Source: Rothia uropygialis
GTDB taxonomy: Bacteria; Actinomycetota; Actinomycetes; Actinomycetales; Micrococcaceae
Assembly: GCF_004137765.1 (NCBI RefSeq)
Contig: NZ_NOIS01000001.1
Span: forward strand, 1 to 64,000
Reading direction: 5' to 3'
DNA: 64,000 nucleotides
This document shows positions 43,404-60,275 of the stretch, piece after piece. How positions within the stretch are numbered: the stretch's first letter is position 1; every line of letters begins with the position of its first letter. The notes beneath the pieces were generated by a model. That model made no database searches, was not told the origin of the DNA, and saw only the letters and a program-made list of their open reading frames with translations. Both the position numbers and the translations under genes were made by a program.

Positions 43404-43431
43404 GGCCGGCCCCTCGGAGAAGGAGCCGGCC
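43404..43431 (-). terminator. Terminator of the large surface-protein gene
   Basis: On the minus strand GGCCGGCTCCT and AGGGGCCGGCC form a hairpin followed by TTTTTCC, beginning just after the stop codon at 43438. Confidence 0.85.
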
Positions 43432-43437
43432 GAAGGA

Positions 43438-46380
43438 TCAGGTCTCGGCGTCCGTCCGGGCGTTCTGGCGACGTCGGTACGCCGTCACTCCGATGAGTGT
43501 CGAGCCGATCAGCAGGGCGCAGATCATGACGGCGCGGGGGATATTGATCGATGCGCCTGTCTTGGCCAACGAATCTCCGGCCTGGGCCGGAGGAGCGTGA
43601 GACGGCTTCGAGCCGAAGAGGTTCCCGTCGGTGATCCCGTGGTTCCCTGATTCTCCGCGGTCATCAGGGAGCGACTTGCCGGATTCGGAGGCGAAGACGT
43701 GGCTGCTCCCCGTGCGGGGCGCGGGATCCGCCGCGTTGGCGGCGGGGTCCGGATTTCCGGAGGCCCGTCCAAGCGAGGTCTGCGGCGCCGGACCGACCAC
43801 GGATCCGGAAACGCGAGTGCCGCTGTCGGAACCGCGGTTTCCCGAAATCTCGCCGTCGGAGCCTGCAATGCGTACGCTTTCACCGTCGGTTCCCTGATCG
43901 CTCTGACCGCCATCCCCGGCGGAGGCTCCTCCGTGATGATCGGCGTGGCTACCGGGGTGGTCGGAATCGGGCCGAGCGTCGTCCTTCCCGTGGGTATTGC
44001 CCGTTGTTTTGCCGTCACCGGGCCCCTCCGCGGGACCGGTCGGGCCGGTGCCGCACTGATCACCGGCGGGATTCCCGACGACAACCCGCAGGTTCTGCGT
44101 TTCGGATCGGACTGACGTGCCGTCTCTGCTCTTCCCTGAGTAGGAGACATCAAAGGAATAGACACCCGGTTTGGTAAAGACCCAGTTCGCGTGGGCATGT
44201 GTTCCGTTGGTGATGTTGATATCGGTCTTGTTCTTCGTGGAGTCGAGCATCACGTTGACCTTGCCTCCCAGATTTCCGTCCGAGAACATTCCGAAGTGTG
44301 CATCCTTCGGCATCTGGGTGGGCTTGATGGACAGGTTCACGCCGTTCTGGTCGAAGGTCGAAAAATCGATGCCTTGGGTGTTGTACCCGGGCCAGATGGT
44401 TCCCGGGCTCTGCGTCTGGGACAGACCATAGAACTGCGTGCCTTCGGGCCCGATGAAATCCAGTGCCGGGTCCTTCATCACGCCGCCGTGCCTCTTGTGG
44501 CGGGCATGGTTCGAGACCACGAACTTGACGTCGTTCAGGTTGCGTTCGACCGTGCTCTTGTCGTGTTGGCCCGTCTCGTCGCTCAGGGCAATCGAAAGCC
44601 CTTTGCTCGATCCCTTTCCGGCGATGTCAACGTGTCCGTCGTCCAAGGCCAGACGCCGATCGAGGTCGGGATCCTCGCACTTGTCATCGTTCGAGGGCTC
44701 TTTCGGATTGGGGCCGCCCGGCCGGTCCGAAGGGGAAGGCTCGGGTGAGGGGGCGAGGGTGGGGGACGCGGATGCCGAGGGCTCAGGTTGCGGGGAATCC
44801 GTGTCGGAGGGTGTGTCGAGGGTCAGGGTGCCGGGGATTGACTGGGGTTTGTCCTTGGTGACAGGGCCCTCGAGGAGCCGTGTATCGGCGAAGGCATTCA
44901 TATCCGGGTGAGGTATGACGGTGCTTCGGAATACGCTGGATTCTTCGATGAAGTCGGTCTCGTAGAACGCGGTTCCGACGCCATCCGTGACCTGAGTTTC
45001 AAAGGTCGACGTCGGATGCTTGGAGTCGGCGTTGTCGTAGATCCCGCCGGTGACCAAGCCGCGGAATTTCGGGTCCTTGAAGCGGACTGTGACTTTGGTG
45101 TAGTCATGCCCCTCGACCGGTGTCAGCTCGATGGTGTAGTCGGTGTTCTCGGGCGTGTAGTGCTCGGTCGGCAACGCGATGTTTGCCGGTTCAGGGAGCT
45201 TGTCGGGCCAGGGGCCGTGCCCCTGATCCGAAGAGACGTGGGCCTGCTTGCCTGGGGCGTACTTCAATTCGGGGCTGATCCAGCGGGGCGCGGAACCGTC
45301 TTTGGGAACGAAGATGCCCTGGAGGGACGAATCCTCGAATCCCATGAGCTCATCCCACGACGCCCTGCCATTTTCCACGGGCAGGTCGGTCAGGAAGTAG
45401 CCCTGATTGTAAAGGGTCAGGGTGCCCTCGACCGGTTTCCCGGCCTCGAAGGATATTGTGCTGAGTTTCTCGTCGCCGTCATTCTTCTGTCCCGTGTGGG
45501 GAGAAACGGCCAATCGATATTTCGCGGTTTTCAACCCCGCGTCAGATGCTTTGTCGAAACTCTCCTTGAGGGGGGCGGTGGCGGTGTCCAATGGTTTCTG
45601 CCCACCGACTTGGACCACCATTGTGGTCGGCTTGGACTGGATGGTACTTCCGTCCGTACCCCGGGCAACGGCCCGGTAGGTCAGTTCGTAGCGACCGGGC
45701 CTGGAGTAAAGGGTCGCGTTGTGAGTGTGTGAGCCGGGCACGAGGCGTTGCGAGTGCCACCCTTGGTCGGATGAGCTCAGCATACGGTTGACGTCCTGAG
45801 GGTAGATATCGGCCGTGTAGTTGAGCATTTCCACGCGACCCGGCCCGTCGACCGAGAGCAGATCGAGGAAGAATGACTTGTCGCGGAATTTCTCGATCGG
45901 AATGTCGGTGTCCGCACCGAAGCCCATCCAAATGGGGTCGTGGTTGTTGATCGGCAGACCGGGCGCCATGTACCAGGTCTTGCCGGCGCTTTTCAGGAAG
46001 TCGAGGTTTGGGCTGTCCGGAACCGTGAATTGGTATTGGTTCTTTCCGGAGCGGTTCCAGCCCTTGCCAACCCATGCGACGGTCGATTCCAACGGTAGTT
46101 CTTGTCCCCGGTACTCGTTGAAGAGAGTGAACTGGTCGTTCTTCCAGTACGTCTTGGGAGCATCCACGTGCGCCCTGGTGGTCACGGTGCGTCCGTCGTC
46201 GGGACCCGCCCACGCGGGGGTCGACCCTAGCATCAGGGCGAGGGCGGCCATACAAGCCGTGACCCATTGCGTTCCTCGTGGCCACGGGTTTGTAGCCCGG
46301 GACGTTCGAGTCGAATCCTTCGCGCCCGAGGGCGGAGGAGTGAATCGTGGACCGGAGAAGCGGCTCCTGGCTGTGGGCAT
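43438..46380 (-). CDS. Large wall-anchored repeat protein of the metal transporter system (LAKTG anchor)
   Basis: A 980-residue secreted surface protein with GAGAGG before the ATG. A long basic N-region precedes the signal helix, with likely cleavage after TPAWA (about residue 58). Domain 1 (about 65-260) and domain 3 (about 570-790) are the repeat shared across this locus: HVD start, W-x-G...TQ middle and a THAHANWVFTKPG-type end (PGSHTHNATLYSRPG in domain 1). A different beta-rich domain lies between them (about 270-520), and a Pro/Ser/Asp-rich linker and stalk separate and follow the domains. The sorting signal is LAKTG (938-942), then a membrane helix and basic tail, a class E sortase-type motif. 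Matches the TIGRFAM description of 'anchored repeat' wall proteins. Confidence 0.85.
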   Translation of the reverse strand: MPTARSRFSGPRFTPPPSGAKDSTRTSRATNPWPRGTQWVTACMAALALMLGSTPAWAGPDDGRTVTTRAHVDAPKTYWKNDQFTLFNEYRGQELPLESTVAWVGKGWNRSGKNQYQFTVPDSPNLDFLKSAGKTWYMAPGLPINNHDPIWMGFGADTDIPIEKFRDKSFFLDLLSVDGPGRVEMLNYTADIYPQDVNRMLSSSDQGWHSQRLVPGSHTHNATLYSRPGRYELTYRAVARGTDGSTIQSKPTTMVVQVGGQKPLDTATAPLKESFDKASDAGLKTAKYRLAVSPHTGQKNDGDEKLSTISFEAGKPVEGTLTLYNQGYFLTDLPVENGRASWDELMGFEDSSLQGIFVPKDGSAPRWISPELKYAPGKQAHVSSDQGHGPWPDKLPEPANIALPTEHYTPENTDYTIELTPVEGHDYTKVTVRFKDPKFRGLVTGGIYDNADSKHPTSTFETQVTDGVGTAFYETDFIEESSVFRSTVIPHPDMNAFADTRLLEGPVTKDKPQSIPGTLTLDTPSDTDSPQPEPSASASPTLAPSPEPSPSDRPGGPNPKEPSNDDKCEDPDLDRRLALDDGHVDIAGKGSSKGLSIALSDETGQHDKSTVERNLNDVKFVVSNHARHKRHGGVMKDPALDFIGPEGTQFYGLSQTQSPGTIWPGYNTQGIDFSTFDQNGVNLSIKPTQMPKDAHFGMFSDGNLGGKVNVMLDSTKNKTDINITNGTHAHANWVFTKPGVYSFDVSYSGKSRDGTSVRSETQNLRVVVGNPAGDQCGTGPTGPAEGPGDGKTTGNTHGKDDARPDSDHPGSHADHHGGASAGDGGQSDQGTDGESVRIAGSDGEISGNRGSDSGTRVSGSVVGPAPQTSLGRASGNPDPAANAADPAPRTGSSHVFASESGKSLPDDRGESGNHGITDGNLFGSKPSHAPPAQAGDSLAKTGASINIPRAVMICALLIGSTLIGVTAYRRRQNARTDAET

Positions 46381-46489
46381 TGGTGTCCTCTCTCAGAAGG
46401 CGGGTGACTGCGACGAGACGGCCGAAGACCGTGCCCGGTCGCTTGTTGTCCGTGGCGAGCCCGATGTTGCGTTAGGGGAACGGCACGAC

Positions 46490-46555
46490 CATAAGTCAAG
46501 ATGCGAATGAGTTTTATTAATTATGTACTATAAAGTAGTCAACATTTCGACATGC
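46490..46555. promoter_or_regulatory. AT-rich divergent control region of the metal transporter locus
   Basis: The 218 bases between the two divergent surface-protein genes contain a markedly AT-rich core. It holds TACTAT (46526-46531) as a plus-strand -10 candidate, TTGACT on the minus strand 17 bases before TAATAA, and a small palindrome ACTATAAAGTAGT (46527-46539). One regulator could control both directions. No recognised Zur or MntR consensus can be assigned with confidence. Confidence 0.45.
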
Positions 46556-46598
46556 TGTTCTCTGCCGCGGTGTCGCCCGTCGCATGGAAAGGACCTCG

Positions 46599-47681
46599 AT
46601 GAATCGCACATCTTCAGTACACGACTGTGGCCAAAGCCGACGTTGGGGACGTCGCGTGACCGCCACCTCACTGGCTTCGCTCGCGCTCGCGGCAGGCCTC
46701 ATTGCACAACCGCTGGCCGTGTCATCGGCCATCGCCGCAGACCTGCCCGAGGTCTGCTCGTCGAACCAGGCTCCCGCAGCCGAAGTCGTCCATGACGGCC
46801 ACTTCGATTTCGGGGCGCGGTTGATGGATGGGACTCTCAAGAGCGCGGTCAAGGATGACCGGAGCCACCCTGCACAGTGGAAGATCGGGCAAAACCTCGT
46901 ATTCGCTCTGGGAGACGCCGCGAAGAAGAAGATGCCTGCGGGTATGGAGGACATCGCACAACAGGGCTCGGAGGTTTACCTCATCGGAGCCAGCCAGGAA
47001 GCGAACGTGCCGTGGCTGGGGTGGAACACTCAGGACGCGGCACTGGTTGATCAGGGTGCCGGGGACGTGACGATGTCGCTGGATTCGGTCGACGGTCCAG
47101 GAGATCTGAGCGTCTTCCTGACCGGGAACTTCGGCAGTGGCGCAACTCCGGTGTTCTCGACCAAGGGACAGAATTCGTACACGGTCCCCCTCAACACCCA
47201 CCAGCACGGTAACTGGGTCTTTACGAAGCCGGGGGACTACACCGCGACCGTGACTTTCACCGCGAAGCTCAAGACCGGTGAGCAGAAGACTTCTACGGGC
47301 AAACTGCGCTTCGCGGTCGGCGAAGCCGCCGTCGCCAATGCCCAGAAGAATCCCGGTGCCGGCGCTTACCCCGACGAGTGCTCGACCGGAGACGACAAGG
47401 CTGGCGGCAACAAAGCTGCGGCCCAGGATCCCAACAACCACCAGCAGGGCACCGGCGGTACGGACAGCGGTTCCTCGAAGGGAGGATCAGGCGCCACCGG
47501 GACGAACGCGGCAGACATCTCCGACAACCAAGCGCAGCAATCAAGTTCGGCCCGGGGGCAACTTGCCGAGACCGGACCGGTTGAAGACGCCATGATCGTC
47601 AACGCGCTCTACGGCGTGACGCTGCTACTCTGCGGCGGTCTCCTCGTGTGGGCACTGCGCGGCGGACGTCGGCGGGCGTGA
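46599..47681 (+). CDS. Wall-anchored single-repeat surface protein (LAETG anchor)
   Basis: A 360-residue secreted protein. The ATG at 46599 follows GGAAAGGA with good spacing. The signal peptide ends near AIAADLPE (about residue 45-48). One copy of the shared repeat runs from HDGHFDFG through WLGWNTQ to THQHGNWVFTKPG (about 60-245). A Gln/Gly/Ser/Thr-rich stalk follows, then LAETG (322-326), a membrane helix and RRRA. Two cysteines flank the domain (CSSNQ, DECSTG) and may form a disulphide. It is the first gene of the transporter operon, and its stop overlaps the next start (GTGA). Confidence 0.87.
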   Translation: MNRTSSVHDCGQSRRWGRRVTATSLASLALAAGLIAQPLAVSSAIAADLPEVCSSNQAPAAEVVHDGHFDFGARLMDGTLKSAVKDDRSHPAQWKIGQNLVFALGDAAKKKMPAGMEDIAQQGSEVYLIGASQEANVPWLGWNTQDAALVDQGAGDVTMSLDSVDGPGDLSVFLTGNFGSGATPVFSTKGQNSYTVPLNTHQHGNWVFTKPGDYTATVTFTAKLKTGEQKTSTGKLRFAVGEAAVANAQKNPGAGAYPDECSTGDDKAGGNKAAAQDPNNHQQGTGGTDSGSSKGGSGATGTNAADISDNQAQQSSSARGQLAETGPVEDAMIVNALYGVTLLLCGGLLVWALRGGRRRA

Positions 47682-49288
47682 CCGGGCGCGGTCGCGTTCG
47701 CGCAGTCGTCGCGGTTCTGACCCTGGTGACGATCGGGGCGCTGAGCGGATGTTCGGTCGTTCCGGATGCAGTCGGCACCTCACCCGCCGGGAGCGAGCCG
47801 TTGCGTGTGGTCGCGACGACCCCCATTCTGGCCGACCTGGCCCAGAGGATCGGCGGAAACGAGGTCTGTGCGACATCACTGGTTCCGACGGGGGCGGATC
47901 CGCACTCCTACGAACCAGGTTTGAGGGACATTCGCGACATCGCGTACGCCGATCTGGCCCTCACCAACGGGATGTTGCTCGAACAACAGAAATTGCGTCG
48001 CACGGTGCAATCGAACCTCTCTGACAGCGCGAACGGAATCGTCCCCGTCGCCGAGAGGATCGAGAAGTACGGTGGGAGCTTGCGTCCGATGACGGAGGAC
48101 CTCTCCCTGGACACGGTGTGGCTGGGGCTCAGGTCAGAAGGCGGGCGGCAGGACCCATCCGGAAGAAGCAACGAGCCTTCCGTGACGTTCCGAACTGACC
48201 GCATCAAGGGCGATGGGCATACGGCGGCGTTCGTCTCGGGGACGTTCGGTCGTGTCAGGAAGGTCGCTGACTCAGCGGCCGACGGAGCCCGCCGGCGTTC
48301 CGACGGGAACGTCACCGGCGACTTGGGATCAATCGACCTGCCTCCGGATGCCCACACTCACCTGTCCTGGGGATTCACCGAATCCGGCCTGCACGAGGTT
48401 GAGATCCGGGCCCAGGCCCCCGGCGTTGATGTTCCTCCGTCCACCGTGTACTTCGCGGTGGGCACGGACGCCCATGAAGCCGCTACGAGCATCGGGCCGC
48501 ATACCCAGGTACTCGACGGTGGCCATGTGGACGTCACGGCGGATCTCACCAGAAGCCGCATGGTACTCCGTGCGGACACCGACCACGGGGCCAAGGAATA
48601 CGACCCGTCTCAAACCGTGATCGCCGTTCCGGCCAAGGCTTTGCAGGAGTTGCCCGCGGGCGCTCAATACCGTTTCCTGGGTCGCCCGGGGGAGCAGGTC
48701 TATCTGTTGGCGCAGGCAGTCCTCGGCGAGCACGTTCACGGTGAGATCGACCCTCACTTCTGGCATTCGGTGCCCAATGTGAAGGCCGCCGCCGAGGTGA
48801 TCCGGGACCAGATGATTGCCGCTGCACCTTCGCGGGCCAGTCTCTTCGAATCCAACACGCGTGACCTGCTGCGGAACCTTGACGATGTGGACCGGGAACT
48901 CCACACGGTCTATGACGCGATCCCGAAGCAACGGCGCAGTCTGATCACGACTCACGACGGCTACGGCTACCTCGCTGATACCTACGGGTTGAAAGTGGAA
49001 GGTTTCGTGGCCCCGGTCCCCGGCACCGAACCGGGTTTGCAACAACGTCGGCGCTTGTCCCGAGCCATCACAGACCTGCACATTCCAGCCGTGTTCGTGG
49101 ACAAAGGAACCATGGGCCGCGGAAACGTTCTGCAACAGGTTGCCCGTGAGCAGGATGTCAAGGTCTGTGAGCTCTATTCGGACACCTTGGACAAGCAGGC
49201 GCCTCACTACGAAGACATGATGCGGGCTAACGCCACCACGATTTCCCGGTGCCTCGAACCCAGGGACCCGGGGAAGTCTGCCCACTGA
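47678..49288 (+). CDS. Metal-binding lipoprotein of the anchored-repeat ABC importer with inserted repeat domain
   Basis: A 536-residue substrate-binding protein. The GTG at 47678 overlaps the previous stop, and the lipobox ALSGC puts the lipidated Cys at residue 25. The flanking sequence is a TroA/ZnuA-type (cluster A-I) metal-binding protein, with likely ligands His76 (GADPHSYEP), His360 (DPHFWH), His426 (TTHDGYGY) and Asp502 (YSDTL). Residues about 145-347 are an insertion made of the same repeat found in the surface proteins, but with its C-terminal half first and its N-terminal half second. The insertion replaces the His-rich loop of ZnuA. Zinc or manganese is the expected substrate. Confidence 0.88.
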   Translation: MTGRGRVRAVVAVLTLVTIGALSGCSVVPDAVGTSPAGSEPLRVVATTPILADLAQRIGGNEVCATSLVPTGADPHSYEPGLRDIRDIAYADLALTNGMLLEQQKLRRTVQSNLSDSANGIVPVAERIEKYGGSLRPMTEDLSLDTVWLGLRSEGGRQDPSGRSNEPSVTFRTDRIKGDGHTAAFVSGTFGRVRKVADSAADGARRRSDGNVTGDLGSIDLPPDAHTHLSWGFTESGLHEVEIRAQAPGVDVPPSTVYFAVGTDAHEAATSIGPHTQVLDGGHVDVTADLTRSRMVLRADTDHGAKEYDPSQTVIAVPAKALQELPAGAQYRFLGRPGEQVYLLAQAVLGEHVHGEIDPHFWHSVPNVKAAAEVIRDQMIAAAPSRASLFESNTRDLLRNLDDVDRELHTVYDAIPKQRRSLITTHDGYGYLADTYGLKVEGFVAPVPGTEPGLQQRRRLSRAITDLHIPAVFVDKGTMGRGNVLQQVAREQDVKVCELYSDTLDKQAPHYEDMMRANATTISRCLEPRDPGKSAH

Positions 49289-49307
49289 ACCGTTGAAAAC
49301 AGAGAAC

Positions 49308-50288
49308 ATGAGAAAACACCACAAGACTGCGATACGGGTGCTTGCCCTGGCAATGTTGCTCGGCCCCGTCGGATTGGGCCTGCCGAGCGCATCGGCCTCC
49401 CCGTCTGCGGGAACCAACCAGTTCGTCGAAGACAAGGCACTCGAACAGAAACTGTCCACCGAAGAAAAGATCGGCCACGAGCGGACCGTGATCGATCACG
49501 GACACGTTGATATGGGGCCGAAATTTGTGGACGGAGCGTGGACGCTCATGATCCACGACGACCACAACCGTGAGCCCGTATGGCGGCGGCCGGGCGACGT
49601 CGTGCTCCGTGCCGGGGATACGTCCCGGCTGCCCACCCCAGACGATCCCCGTTATGACTTCGTGGGGACGCCAGCGGGACAGGACGTATACGTGATACCC
49701 CAGACCGAGGCCCGGGGCGTCGTCTGGCCGGGGTGGAACACTCAGGACCCGGAGGTACAGGACCGTCTGGGGACGGGAGCCAACCTGACTTTCGAGGGCG
49801 TGGAAGGTCCGGGCCGGTTCAGCCTGTACCTTGAGAACGGCAATTTTTCCGGTCCCCAGGTTCTCTGGACTTCCGACAAGGAGGAGCCACAGGACATCTG
49901 GGTTCCGACCAACACGCATACCCATGCCAATTGGGTTTTCACCTTACCCGGAACGTACTTCGTGACGGTCAGGGTCCACGGCAAACTCTCCGACGGGACG
50001 GAAGTATCCGATACTCAGCGGTTGCAGTTCGCGGTCGGCGATTCGACCGACCCTGACCAGGTGTTCAACAAGGCCGCCCTGCTGGGCGATCCCGCCCCGC
50101 CGAAGAACGAGGACCATCACGATCAGGATGCGAAGAACGAGGCGCAAGCCCTCTCGGCACCTGTGATCGTCTTGGCCGTCGTCCTCGTCGGGGGAGGCGT
50201 GCTGCTGTGGTGGGTCGTCCGGGATCGACGGGCCAAGAAGGCGGTGCTGAACCAGCAACGGAACGCGGGGAACACCCATGACCGATAA
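49308..50288 (+). CDS. Membrane-anchored repeat protein of the transporter operon
   Basis: A 326-residue exported protein. The ATG at 49308 (MRKHHKTAIRVLALAMLL) starts a signal peptide cleaved near ASASPS. One shared repeat follows: IDHGHVDMG, VVWPGWNTQ and THTHANWVFTLPG (about 65-250). After a short acidic, His-containing linker (DHHDQD) a transmembrane helix (about 284-305) and a basic tail end the protein; there is no LAxTG motif. It would therefore be held in the membrane rather than the wall. Its end overlaps the ATPase start by 11 bases. Confidence 0.85.
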   Translation: MRKHHKTAIRVLALAMLLGPVGLGLPSASASPSAGTNQFVEDKALEQKLSTEEKIGHERTVIDHGHVDMGPKFVDGAWTLMIHDDHNREPVWRRPGDVVLRAGDTSRLPTPDDPRYDFVGTPAGQDVYVIPQTEARGVVWPGWNTQDPEVQDRLGTGANLTFEGVEGPGRFSLYLENGNFSGPQVLWTSDKEEPQDIWVPTNTHTHANWVFTLPGTYFVTVRVHGKLSDGTEVSDTQRLQFAVGDSTDPDQVFNKAALLGDPAPPKNEDHHDQDAKNEAQALSAPVIVLAVVLVGGGVLLWWVVRDRRAKKAVLNQQRNAGNTHDR

Positions 50289-51039
50289 CCGCTTGGAAAT
50301 CTCCGGTCTCACCGTCTCACTGGGTGGTCGCATAGTCCTCGATTCGCTGGACTGGGAGGTCGAAGCCGGGGAATTCGTCGCGCTGATCGGCCCCAACGGA
50401 ACCGGAAAGACCACCCTGCTCCGAACAATATTGGGTTTGGTCTCACCGGTGGCCGGGAAGATCACCGTCGGAAGCCACGCGCCAGCCCGTGCCCGTGCCG
50501 CATTGGGTTATGTGCCGCAGAAGCACCACTTCGCATGGGACTACCCGTTGACCGTCGAAGACGCCGTGATGATCGGACGGACCCGCAAGATCGGGTGGTT
50601 CCGTCGACCGAAAACCGCGGACTGGGCTGCGGTTCATGAAGCCCTGGAACGGGTAGGCCTGGTTGATCAGCGTCGTCGCTCCATCGGCGAGCTCTCGGGA
50701 GGACAGAGGCAACGGGTGCTCCTCGCACGGACGCTCGCAACCGACCCCCGGTTTCTGCTGCTCGACGAGCCCTTCACCGGAGTCGACGCCCCGACCCAGG
50801 ACAAGCTCGGCCAGCTGTACACAGCGCTCGCCAGGGATGGGCTCGGCATCGTCATGAGCACCCATGATGTCCTGGGTGCCCTGACCGATTGCTCACGGAT
50901 CTGCGGGCTGAGGGGACACATCGACCTGGATGCGCCGCCCTCGGAGCTCGACGCCGCCTCCCTCAACACATGGCTGCGCGGTCGTCCCCTGGCATCGTGT
51001 GGAATCACTCGTTCCGACGTACGGGAGCAACACTCATGA
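50278..51039 (+). CDS. Metal ABC importer ATP-binding protein (anchored-repeat type)
   Basis: A 253-residue ABC ATPase with intact motifs: Walker A GPNGTGKT (38-45), signature LSGGQ (139-143), Walker B FLLLDEP (159-165) and the switch His in STHD. It resembles the ZnuC/MntB group. It powers import through the permease encoded next, whose ATG overlaps this stop (ATGA). The last ~20 residues are a family-variable tail. Confidence 0.93.
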   Translation: MTDNRLEISGLTVSLGGRIVLDSLDWEVEAGEFVALIGPNGTGKTTLLRTILGLVSPVAGKITVGSHAPARARAALGYVPQKHHFAWDYPLTVEDAVMIGRTRKIGWFRRPKTADWAAVHEALERVGLVDQRRRSIGELSGGQRQRVLLARTLATDPRFLLLDEPFTGVDAPTQDKLGQLYTALARDGLGIVMSTHDVLGALTDCSRICGLRGHIDLDAPPSELDAASLNTWLRGRPLASCGITRSDVREQHS

Positions 51040-51893
51040 TCACCCCGTGGGAGTTCGTGATCGACCTCTTCAACCCGAATCTGACGTTCTTATCGCGGGC
51101 CTTGGCGGCCGTCGTGATCTCCTCGATCGTGTGCGGCGTCGTCGGGTGCCACGTCGTGATGCGAGGAATGGTCTTCATTGGCGACGCCGTGGCCCACTCG
51201 GTGTTTCCCGGGCTCGCGGTGGCCTTTGTCGTTGGCGGGAACATGGTCCTCGGGGGATTGGTCGCCGGTGTGCTGACCGCGGTGCTCGTTGCCGTCTTCA
51301 GCCAGAATCGGCGGCTGAAGGAGGATTCGGTCATCGGTATTCTTTTTGCCGGCGCCTTTGCCTTGGGCATTGTGATCATCTCGCGGGCACCGGGGTACTC
51401 CGGCTCAGTCGAGGATTTTCTGTTCGGCTCGATCGTCGGGGTCTCCGACCACGACGTCATGATGGCAGCGGTCGCCGGTGCGGGACTGCTGCTGGTCCTG
51501 GCGCTTTTTCACAAGGAGATCGTGACGGTCAGCGTGGACAAGGAGACTGCCCGGGCGTTGGGGCTTCCGGTTTTGGGGCTGGATATCCTTCTGTCCGTGG
51601 TGGTGACCGTGAGCGTTGTCATCTCGTTGCAAACTATCGGCAACGTGCTGATTCTGGCACTCATCGTGATCCCTGCGGCGACGACGCGCCTACTCTGCCA
51701 GCGACTCGGTTCCATGCTCGTCCTCGCCCCCGCGTTCGGTACGGTCTGCGCCACGACAGGGTTATACATATCCTGGTCGATGAATCTTCCCGTCGGGGGA
51801 ACCATAGTTCTGACGATGGTTGCCGGATTCTTTGTCAGCTGGGCGCTCGCGGGGCTTCGTGCCCGAGCCCGAGGAGCAGCCGTGAGCGCCTGA
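51036..51893 (+). CDS. Metal ABC importer permease (anchored-repeat type)
   Basis: A 285-residue membrane protein with about eight helices, starting at the ATG overlapping the ATPase stop. It shows the cluster 9 (zinc/manganese) permease pattern: VMRGMVFIGDAVAHSVFPG near residue 42-60, EDSVIGILFAGAFALGIVI, and the LQTIGNVLILALIVIPAATTRLL segment (about 195-217) that contacts the ATPase. It closes the operon begun at 46599. A strong terminator lies about 110 bases downstream. Confidence 0.93.
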   Translation: MITPWEFVIDLFNPNLTFLSRALAAVVISSIVCGVVGCHVVMRGMVFIGDAVAHSVFPGLAVAFVVGGNMVLGGLVAGVLTAVLVAVFSQNRRLKEDSVIGILFAGAFALGIVIISRAPGYSGSVEDFLFGSIVGVSDHDVMMAAVAGAGLLLVLALFHKEIVTVSVDKETARALGLPVLGLDILLSVVVTVSVVISLQTIGNVLILALIVIPAATTRLLCQRLGSMLVLAPAFGTVCATTGLYISWSMNLPVGGTIVLTMVAGFFVSWALAGLRARARGAAVSA

Positions 51894-59493: not shown

Positions 59494-59523
59494 TATCTTC
59501 CTCGTGAGGTCTCCACCCAGGCC

Positions 59524-59566
59524 TGCGGACGAGGGAGCAGTACCCGCACCACGACAAGACTGACTC
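59524..59566 (+). ncRNA. Guanidine-III riboswitch (ykkC-III)
   Basis: The core GGACGAGG...TACCCG...GACAAGAC matches the conserved residues I recall for the guanidine-III class. The fold is supported by pairing. P1 is TGCGG (59524-59528) with CCGCA (59544-59548). The pseudoknot is GAGCAGT (59535-59541) with ACTG-a-CTC (59559-59566). The ribosome site GGAGGAG of the SMR gene begins about five bases after the pseudoknot. Ligand binding would therefore control translation initiation. Its position before a paired SMR exporter is the expected context. Confidence 0.88.
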
Positions 59567-59583
59567 GAAGGAGGAGAACTGTC

Positions 59584-59898
59584 GTGGCATGGATCGTTTT
59601 GATCGTCTCCGGCGCGCTGGAGATGGTATGGGCTGCGGCCCTGTCCGCATCGCACGGGTTGCGACGTTGGAAGCCGGCCCTTGTCTTTGTCGTCGCCATG
59701 GTTGTGAGCCTTGCAGGCCTCGCATTCGCCATGAAATCCATCCCCGTGGGCACGGCCTACGCCGTTTGGGTCGGCATTGGCGCTACGTTGACCTTGATCT
59801 GGGGTTTCATGACCCGGCAAGAACGAGCGACTTTTGGTCGTCTCTCATTGCTCGGTTTGCTCATTATTTCCCTCATCGGACTGAAGGTGGCGAGCTAA
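59584..59898 (+). CDS. SMR exporter subunit, probable guanidinium exporter (first of pair)
   Basis: A 104-residue, four-helix small multidrug resistance protein starting at GTG with GGAGGAG seven bases upstream. Glu13 in SGALEMVWAA is the substrate and proton site. MKSIPVGTAYAVWVGIGA is characteristic of the SugE/Gdx branch, which exports guanidinium rather than bulky drugs. The guanidine-III riboswitch immediately upstream supports that. It is three bases upstream of a second SMR gene, so the two likely form a heterodimer. Confidence 0.88.
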   Translation: MAWIVLIVSGALEMVWAAALSASHGLRRWKPALVFVVAMVVSLAGLAFAMKSIPVGTAYAVWVGIGATLTLIWGFMTRQERATFGRLSLLGLLIISLIGLKVAS

Positions 59899-59900
59899 AC

Positions 59901-60275
59901 ATGGCCTGGATCGTATTACTCGTCAGTGCGGCGCTCGAAGCCGTGTGGGCAACAGCCCTGGGGGCATCACACGGATTCACCCATCCCCCAGCAACAATCG
60001 TCTTCGTGCTCGCCCTCATCGGAAGCATGGGCGGTCTTGGCTGGGCCGTCAAGAGCATCCCCATCAGCACCGCGTACGCCATTTGGACCGGAATCGGTGC
60101 CGCACTCACCGTCGTCTACGGCATGATGACAGGGGCCGAATCGGTTTCCGTTCTCAAAATACTCTGCATTCTCGGGATCGTCGGGGCCACGGTAGGCCTG
60201 AAACTCATGCCGTCCAGGCCGGAAAGGAACAAATCCGCCGGCAGCAACGAGACAGTTGGCCACGGCTCCGACTGA
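59901..60275 (+). CDS. SMR exporter subunit, probable guanidinium exporter (second of pair)
   Basis: A 124-residue SMR protein beginning at the ATG at 59901, two bases after the previous stop. It matches its partner closely in the helix 1 Glu13 region (SAALEAVWATALG) and in VKSIPISTAYAIWTGIGA. It has an extra hydrophilic C-terminal tail of about 18 residues. Paired, non-identical SMR subunits often insert in opposite orientations. Co-regulated by the guanidine riboswitch. Confidence 0.88.
   Translation: MAWIVLLVSAALEAVWATALGASHGFTHPPATIVFVLALIGSMGGLGWAVKSIPISTAYAIWTGIGAALTVVYGMMTGAESVSVLKILCILGIVGATVGLKLMPSRPERNKSAGSNETVGHGSD

Follow-up and report, generated by a model that had tools for sequence, protein, structure and literature searches.

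By its sequence, the substrate-binding lipoprotein encoded in an uptake locus of Rothia uropygialis contains a circularly permuted copy of the choice_anch_M domain that is also found in the surface proteins encoded beside it, and this permutation is a new observation of the present analysis. The locus represents the same type of system as ZnuAECB/ZnuFG, the zinc system of Corynebacterium diphtheriae published in 2025 (PMC12445094), and the HxD/HxH motif of the latter corresponds to the HVD and paired histidines of the first-pass annotation. We give a probability of roughly 55% to the reading that would account for the whole: a high-affinity zinc importer of the Zur type that extends into the cell wall by zinc-binding outworks, whose domains would deliver zinc to the lipoprotein.

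The window, that is, the whole stretch of DNA that was analysed, has a length of 64,000 nucleotides. The features of the locus are as follows:

43438..46380 (-): wall protein A, 980 aa, two choice_anch_M domains, divergent from the other genes (ORF list, NCBIfam, motif scan)
45607..46182 (-): A domain 1, HVD71 ... HTH218 (NF038134, 132.1 bits)
44077..44646 (-): A domain 2, HVD583 ... HAH728 (NF038134, 157.3 bits)
43555..43569 (-): A sorting signal LAKTG, residues 938-942 (motif scan)
46502..46516 (+): TGCGAATGAGTTTTA, a degenerate Zur box within the divergent promoter region that matches 9 of the 12 specified consensus letters (three mismatches)
46584..47681 (+): wall protein B, 365 aa, one domain, LAETG (ORF, NCBIfam, motif)
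46785..47318 (+): B domain, HFD73 ... HQH206 (NF038134, 155.2 bits)
47562..47576 (+): B sorting signal LAETG, residues 327-331 (motif scan)
47648..49288 (+): substrate-binding lipoprotein C, ZnuA family, TIGR03772, 546 aa, lipobox Cys35
48095..48721 (+): C insert, circularly permuted choice_anch_M domain, residues about 150-358 (NF038134 match, homolog alignment, tandem test)
49293..50288 (+): membrane protein D, ZnuE-like, 331 aa, one domain (ORF, NCBIfam, motif)
49488..50036 (+): D domain, HVD71 ... HTH209 (NF038134, 213.3 bits)
50278..51039 (+): ABC ATPase, TIGR03771 (282.5 bits, cut-off 268.8)
51036..51893 (+): ABC-3 family permease, TIGR03770 (382.4 bits, cut-off 296.8; Pfam ABC-3)

According to the ORF list, the plus strand carries B, C, D, the ATPase and the permease in this order (46584-51893), and A lies on the opposite strand, diverging from them. 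The ATG at 51036, read off the same list, is most likely the start of the permease, and for D the ATG at 49308 is a likelier start than position 49293. The first-pass annotation had described a dedicated ABC importer matching the 'anchored repeat' models, and the locus does belong to that transporter family: TIGR03770, TIGR03771 and TIGR03772 all exceed their curated cut-offs, the lipoprotein with 537.5 bits (cut-off 350.45, NCBIfam), and Pfam recognises ZnuA in C and ABC-3 in the permease. TIGR03773 (cut-off 190.3) is exceeded by B, with 210 bits, and not by D (172.6) or A (132.7). The two wall anchors that had been proposed were confirmed, with LAKTG at residue 938 of A and LAETG at residue 327 of B; in the motif scan, D showed a hydrophobic C-terminal segment and no LxxTG sorting motif. 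Three matches to the sortase family are present in the genome. The tail of A contains a short His-rich stretch (residues about 797-816), and its middle (residues about 280-510) gave nothing above cut-off in NCBIfam or Pfam. The closest named homolog of D is a Rothia uropygioeca protein, 82% identical. Further along the window, a guanidine-III riboswitch (59503-59569, plus strand, 41.3 bits) lies directly upstream of ORF 59589-60275, the product of which, judged by reading alone, resembles a small multidrug resistance exporter and is likely a guanidine exporter.

The choice_anch_M domain occurs five times in the locus, with two copies in A and one each in B, in D and, inside the lipoprotein, in C. 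The cut-off of its NCBIfam model NF038134, which is 55 bits per whole protein, is exceeded by A (275.6 bits, two stretches), D (211.5), B (153) and C (74.1, two stretches), with E-values from 1.4e-20 to 2.1e-82, and all six matches found genome-wide lie within this locus. C reaches the cut-off solely through two pieces in swapped order, which score 39.1 and 37.8 bits. H-x-D and H-x-H were found by motif scan in all five copies, in C with HTH236 (residues 236-238) first and HVD293 (293-295) second. The earlier proposal of one domain shared by three exported proteins and the lipoprotein is thus borne out, with some amendment: the four proteins hold five copies, since A has two; WxGxNTQ and NWxF are missing as worded from A copy 1; and the common order of motifs from start to end holds for A, B and D but not for C, where the halves are swapped. 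For comparison, a genome scan of 515 relatives was used, from which the best 80 of the 515 loci were kept; lipoprotein and domain genes were scored in these. The sharing of the domain is not due to chance, given the E-values and the presence of further domain proteins near the lipoprotein gene in 73 of the 78 related loci that could be scored, namely those with a recognised lipoprotein ORF. Of the near-full copies in the 80 loci, 313 of 338 have HxD/HxH intact (195 shorter rows were excluded from this count), and several W, G, P and F columns of these copies match the histidines in degree of conservation. Searches of PDB sequences with D alone and with a D profile returned no credible match, and among 38 D homologs scanned against Pfam the matches were all weak, the commonest being Y_Y_Y, in 12.

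The evidence for the permutation comes from the order of the two halves. On C, model positions 72-166 of NF038134 match first, followed by positions 1-73, and with this model the swapped order recurs in each of the 11 genus genomes, our own among them, that have both halves listed. A profile of the 38 D homologs found both halves, with the C-half first, in 45 of 45 C homologs, at a detection bar per half that was low (3 bits) and independent of joining the halves. Likewise, 76 of the 78 scorable lipoproteins of the related loci carry both halves in swapped order. When the insert (residues 150-358) was doubled in tandem, the median best domain score of the 45 homologs increased from 29.9 to 56.1 bits, with a gain of more than 5 bits in 39 and a match spanning the junction in all 45. 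This cut was picked after the results were known and the outcome depends on the cut, junction matches being obtained in 41 of 45 homologs with 152-361, in 39 of 45 with 146-365 and in 0 of 45 with the wider 125-361. The permutation cut separates the VYVIPQ strand from the WxGxN strand. In the C. diphtheriae paper, the ZnuA motif is described as reversed, with 45 aa in between, and the stem 'permut' is absent from the text (PMC12445094); that motif would look reversed because the domain is circularly permuted. A literature search, with preprints and most subscription papers outside its scope, brought up, among the papers listed, none on circular permutation of this domain and no other mechanism study of the system.

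Mean-field couplings, calculated from 332 unique near-full copies (Neff 218; kinship of the sequences uncontrolled), agree with the permutation and with the domain site and serve as supporting evidence for both, the pocket being unproven by them. The coupled pairs 76-84 and 76-87 span the permutation cut in a hairpin-like manner. Four pairs among the top 100 couplings connect columns 1-6 with columns 178-193, compared to 0.55 expected, and on this basis the original ends of the domain probably lie next to each other. When only the 307 copies with intact histidines are considered, the HxD strand is coupled to the WxG strand via 13-85, 16-90, 8-82 and 17-92, and WxG to HxH via 89-153; pairs with any of the invariant columns 12, 14, 150 and 152 are uninformative in this run, and after discounting them 4 of 6 HxD-WxG pairs and 1 of 3 WxG-HxH pairs remain. 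Over all copies, H12-H150 and H12-H152 take ranks 12 and 16 among 17578 pairs, a signal that stems from copies in which the whole site was lost together; in intact copies this coupling between the HxD and HxH histidines vanishes by construction. Taken as whole regions, HxD and HxH are not enriched in couplings (8 in the top 400 versus 11.24 expected). In the shuffle control, 12 pairs lie above 1.566, the maximum of 12 column-shuffled runs, including 76-84, 13-85, 86-150, 88-152 and 12-150, and the end pairs (at most 1.54) and 12-152 (1.493) stay under it.

ZnuA proteins in general have, at the position of this insert, a His-rich loop that aids zinc loading. In the canonical ZnuA of the same genome, which encodes three ZnuA-family proteins in total, GHDHDHDSASGHEHDHDHGSFNEHVW is found where C has the insert (placed by eye), suggesting that the permuted domain occupies the site of the loop. 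The insert stops at about residue 358, before HVHGEIDPHFW and about 12 residues ahead of the likely ligand His370. This residue, His86 and His436, which we take to be the likely zinc ligands of C, are invariant in 45 of 45 C homologs, as are H236, H238, H293 and D295 of the insert. The zinc-type ZnuA proteins are recognised by three His ligands, the third being His rather than Glu, and C conforms to this rule both in the 45 homologs and in the alignment with solved substrate-binding proteins, its third pocket His aligning with a His in, for example, 5kzj and 5w56, which are presumably AztC.

The system is rare in the phylum and common in the genus, with like domains at every level of the envelope. 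Among 296 genomes of the phylum, our own included, the lipoprotein was found in 3 and the domain in 4, the 3 being among the 4. Among 35 genomes of the genus, three of them less than 90% complete and all three without the system, the lipoprotein exceeds its cut-off in 20 and the domain was found in 21, that is, in all 20 with the lipoprotein and in 1 of 15 without it (G016). The copy in this last genome, which has no full lipoprotein, is a lone one with an in-frame TAG (G016:C38:4140-4622), perhaps the remnant of a lost system. In the best 80 of 515 loci, 77 of 78 have a strong ZnuE-like domain gene immediately following the lipoprotein gene, and 52 of 78 encode a domain protein with L[PA]xTG near its end; carriers include Rothia, Corynebacterium, Salinispora, Micromonospora and Solirubrobacter, and wall proteins differ widely in how many domains they have among the loci listed. 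Some lipoproteins carry an additional, unpermuted domain, as was the case for 62 of the 120 homologs listed out of 2074; in the genome scan, none of the 78 loci that could be scored has such a lipoprotein. Sixty-one of the 62 fusions are alike in appearance (793-858 aa; P0114, from Actinomyces graevenitzii, is among them) and may represent one fusion event; in the fusion P0063 the additional domain is N-terminal. The four fusions of the P0114 type that were measured have no strongly hydrophobic segment past residue 60.

The box TGCGAATGAGTTTTA in the promoter region of the locus can be aligned gap-free to the Zur box in six Rothia loci, and sites as degenerate as this one are no rarer in the window than expected by chance (6 found versus 8.84 expected). 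When one mismatch is allowed, the Zur pattern has three sites genome-wide, none of them at this locus, which adjoin FecCD-like, CobW-like and ACT-domain ORFs (assigned by reading). The canonical znu genes of the genome also have a box with only 9 of 12 letters, and the near-palindrome TGTGAACGATTCGCA (L092:3132-3146) lies 29 bases ahead of the first start codon of the canonical znuA ORF. In this species, Zur boxes may have diverged from the usual consensus. One of the two Fur-family genes in the genome adjoins these canonical znu genes and is taken, from this context, as zur. In the Rothia loci L009-L018 and L030, 11 or 12 of the 12 Zur letters were found near the start of the gene run in 11 of 11. 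Of the 80 loci, 76 entered the upstream test, L030 and L042 being left out for want of a recognised lipoprotein ORF and L035 and L079 for their short flank; 21 of the 76 have 11 or 12 of 12 letters upstream, and 35 have a match with p<=0.05 compared to other windows of the same locus, L016 being scored as a miss because its gene start was misplaced, despite an 11/12 box there.

Homologs of the system have been studied experimentally. The C. diphtheriae cluster is repressed by zinc and Zur (PMC6711530), and related surface genes have predicted Zur sites (PMC2823685, PMC3022926). ZnuE and its three histidines are required in zinc-limited medium, deletion of znuA has a modest effect only, and deletion of znuF or znuG leaves growth unaffected when ZnuAECB is present (PMC12445094). 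Deletion of the entire znuF-445 operon results in a longer lag, and in strains without ZnuAECB the wall proteins ZnuF and ZnuG lower growth, an effect that for ZnuG is His-dependent (PMC12445094). Zinc induces thermal shifts of ZnuE, ZnuF and ZnuG, and of ZnuE(3xAla) too, with an ambiguous result for the ZnuG mutant; with the His triad mutated, ZnuE and ZnuG no longer exert their cellular effect, and in the published AlphaFold models HxD and HxH share one pocket (PMC12445094). In Gardnerella, homologs are up about 62 to 121 fold when the medium mimics secretions of the genital tract (PMC11979175), and the family was also reported among strongly changed transcripts, with qPCR repeats that differ in sign (PMC10045295). 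By analogy, the experiments on homologs would support zinc regulation, zinc-dependent thermal shifts and a need for ZnuE and its histidines in the Rothia system, for which the shared domain, the permutation, the insertion point, the conserved histidines and the co-occurrence are read from sequence here.

The metal of the system is very probably zinc, and we are confident that the locus serves zinc import with zinc-binding wall proteins. Metal import by a dedicated ABC importer with His-based surface domains, as put forward in the first-pass annotation, is well supported. In the importer with wall outworks that we prefer, each choice_anch_M domain would hold one zinc by the HxD His and both HxH His, the Asp possibly being a fourth ligand. 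A and B would take up zinc at the cell surface, D (ZnuE) and the permuted copy of C would carry it to the pocket formed by His86, His370 and His436, and C would hand it to the ABC-3 permease, the permuted domain standing in for the His-rich zinc-loading loop of an ordinary ZnuA. We infer that each domain holds one zinc, that zinc is handed on between the copies and that it moves from the wall inward; for the stepwise hand-off the odds seem slightly in favour. The permuted copy and the fusions favour close contact between domain and lipoprotein. The relay proposed earlier gains from the need for the ZnuE histidines, the harm done by ZnuF and ZnuG without ZnuAECB and the lag of the znuF-445 mutant, but not from the dispensability of znuF and znuG singly, the modest effect of znuA or the shift still seen with ZnuE(3xAla) (PMC12445094). 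Harm by wall proteins in the absence of the importer is predicted by hand-off, and equally by sequestration that a strong importer relieves. That no relay mechanism had been shown, as stated then, still applies to transfer, the mechanism of which is unreported, but passes over the homologs, which had already been investigated experimentally (PMC12445094). A bolder and less likely reading is that the chain would be homotypic, with wall, membrane and lipoprotein copies relaying zinc and the permuted copy as the receiving gate. Its new ends would be the hinges of the former His-rich loop, and loading of the domain would drive loading of the pocket about 12 residues off in sequence; if true, actinobacteria would have a zinc analogue of the NEAT haem chain whose domain is unrelated to NEAT. 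The permutation poses a concrete question, namely whether the lipoprotein is loaded by its inserted domain.

The same data can be read in other ways. The wall proteins could be a store or buffer that holds scarce zinc and releases it near the membrane, with only D and C acting in uptake. The variable number of domains per wall protein among the loci listed fits capacity better than a fixed chain, znuF and znuG are dispensable and their products seem to sequester zinc without ZnuAECB, and storage is one option named by the authors for the wall proteins (PMC12445094). A mere store, however, needs neither the same domain inside the lipoprotein at the loading-loop position nor its fusion to the lipoprotein in some species, and we consider this reading doubtful. 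It is improbable that the wall domains dock on zinc proteins of a host or neighbour and strip their metal: Salinispora, Micromonospora and Solirubrobacter, which are free-living, also carry the system, and we know of no host partner for the wall domains, although Rothia, Corynebacterium and Actinomyces graevenitzii are animal-dwelling carriers. The induction of the Gardnerella homologs in simulated genital tract secretions would also suit such piracy (PMC11979175). A manganese or iron system is very improbable. The best match of the ATPase after its own family is the manganese family NF053840 (222.8 bits), but the corresponding best matches are zinc AztC for the lipoprotein (181.1) and AztB for the permease (204.1), and the three-His pocket, the Zur boxes and the repression of homologs by zinc (PMC6711530) also speak for zinc. 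Finally, the repeat could be a structural or glycan-binding spacer with its histidines buried in the fold, consistent with the lack of a matched fold and with W, G, P and F columns as conserved as the histidines; this too we regard as highly unlikely, since the ZnuE and ZnuG triad mutants lose their cellular effect and the AlphaFold models bring HxD and HxH into one pocket (PMC12445094).

Compared to known systems, the zinc importer with wall outworks is closest to C. diphtheriae Znu, which has the same order of lipoprotein, ZnuE, ATPase and permease and the HxD/HxH domain in the lipoprotein, ZnuE and wall proteins; NCBI gives identical product names to the lipoprotein, ATPase and permease of the two systems. 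The wall genes (ZnuF, ZnuG, CmrA, CmrA2) lie downstream in C. diphtheriae, whereas those of Rothia are upstream (B) and divergent (A), and the C. diphtheriae cluster is under Zur control, whereas the Zur box of the Rothia window is degenerate. The families TIGR03769-TIGR03773 and NF038134 cover the parts, with the lipoprotein, the ATPase, the permease and B above cut-off and A-D matching NF038134, but A and D are under the TIGR03773 cut-off and the descriptions name parts and no mechanism. AztABC(D) and ZnuABC have in common with the Rothia system a three-His zinc-type lipoprotein and an ABC-3 permease. Rothia differs from them in the permuted domain in place of the His-rich loop and in wall partners instead of AztD, the periplasmic chaperone of AztABC. 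Streptococcal Pht proteins with AdcAII are another case in which surface zinc-binding repeats are proposed to feed a zinc lipoprotein (PMC12445094). The Pht motif is HxxHxH, in contrast to HxD/HxH in Rothia, and the streptococcal His-triad domain had no Pfam match at E<=0.1 in the proteins of the locus. The comparison with NEAT made in the first-pass annotation stands as an analogy only: no NEAT domain was among the Pfam matches at E<=0.1, and ZnuA in C is the only Pfam family that exceeds its cut-off in A-D. In the NEAT (Isd) relays, haem transfer has been experimentally shown; domain and ligand differ from those of Rothia, and the idea is alike, one repeated domain from the wall to the lipoprotein.
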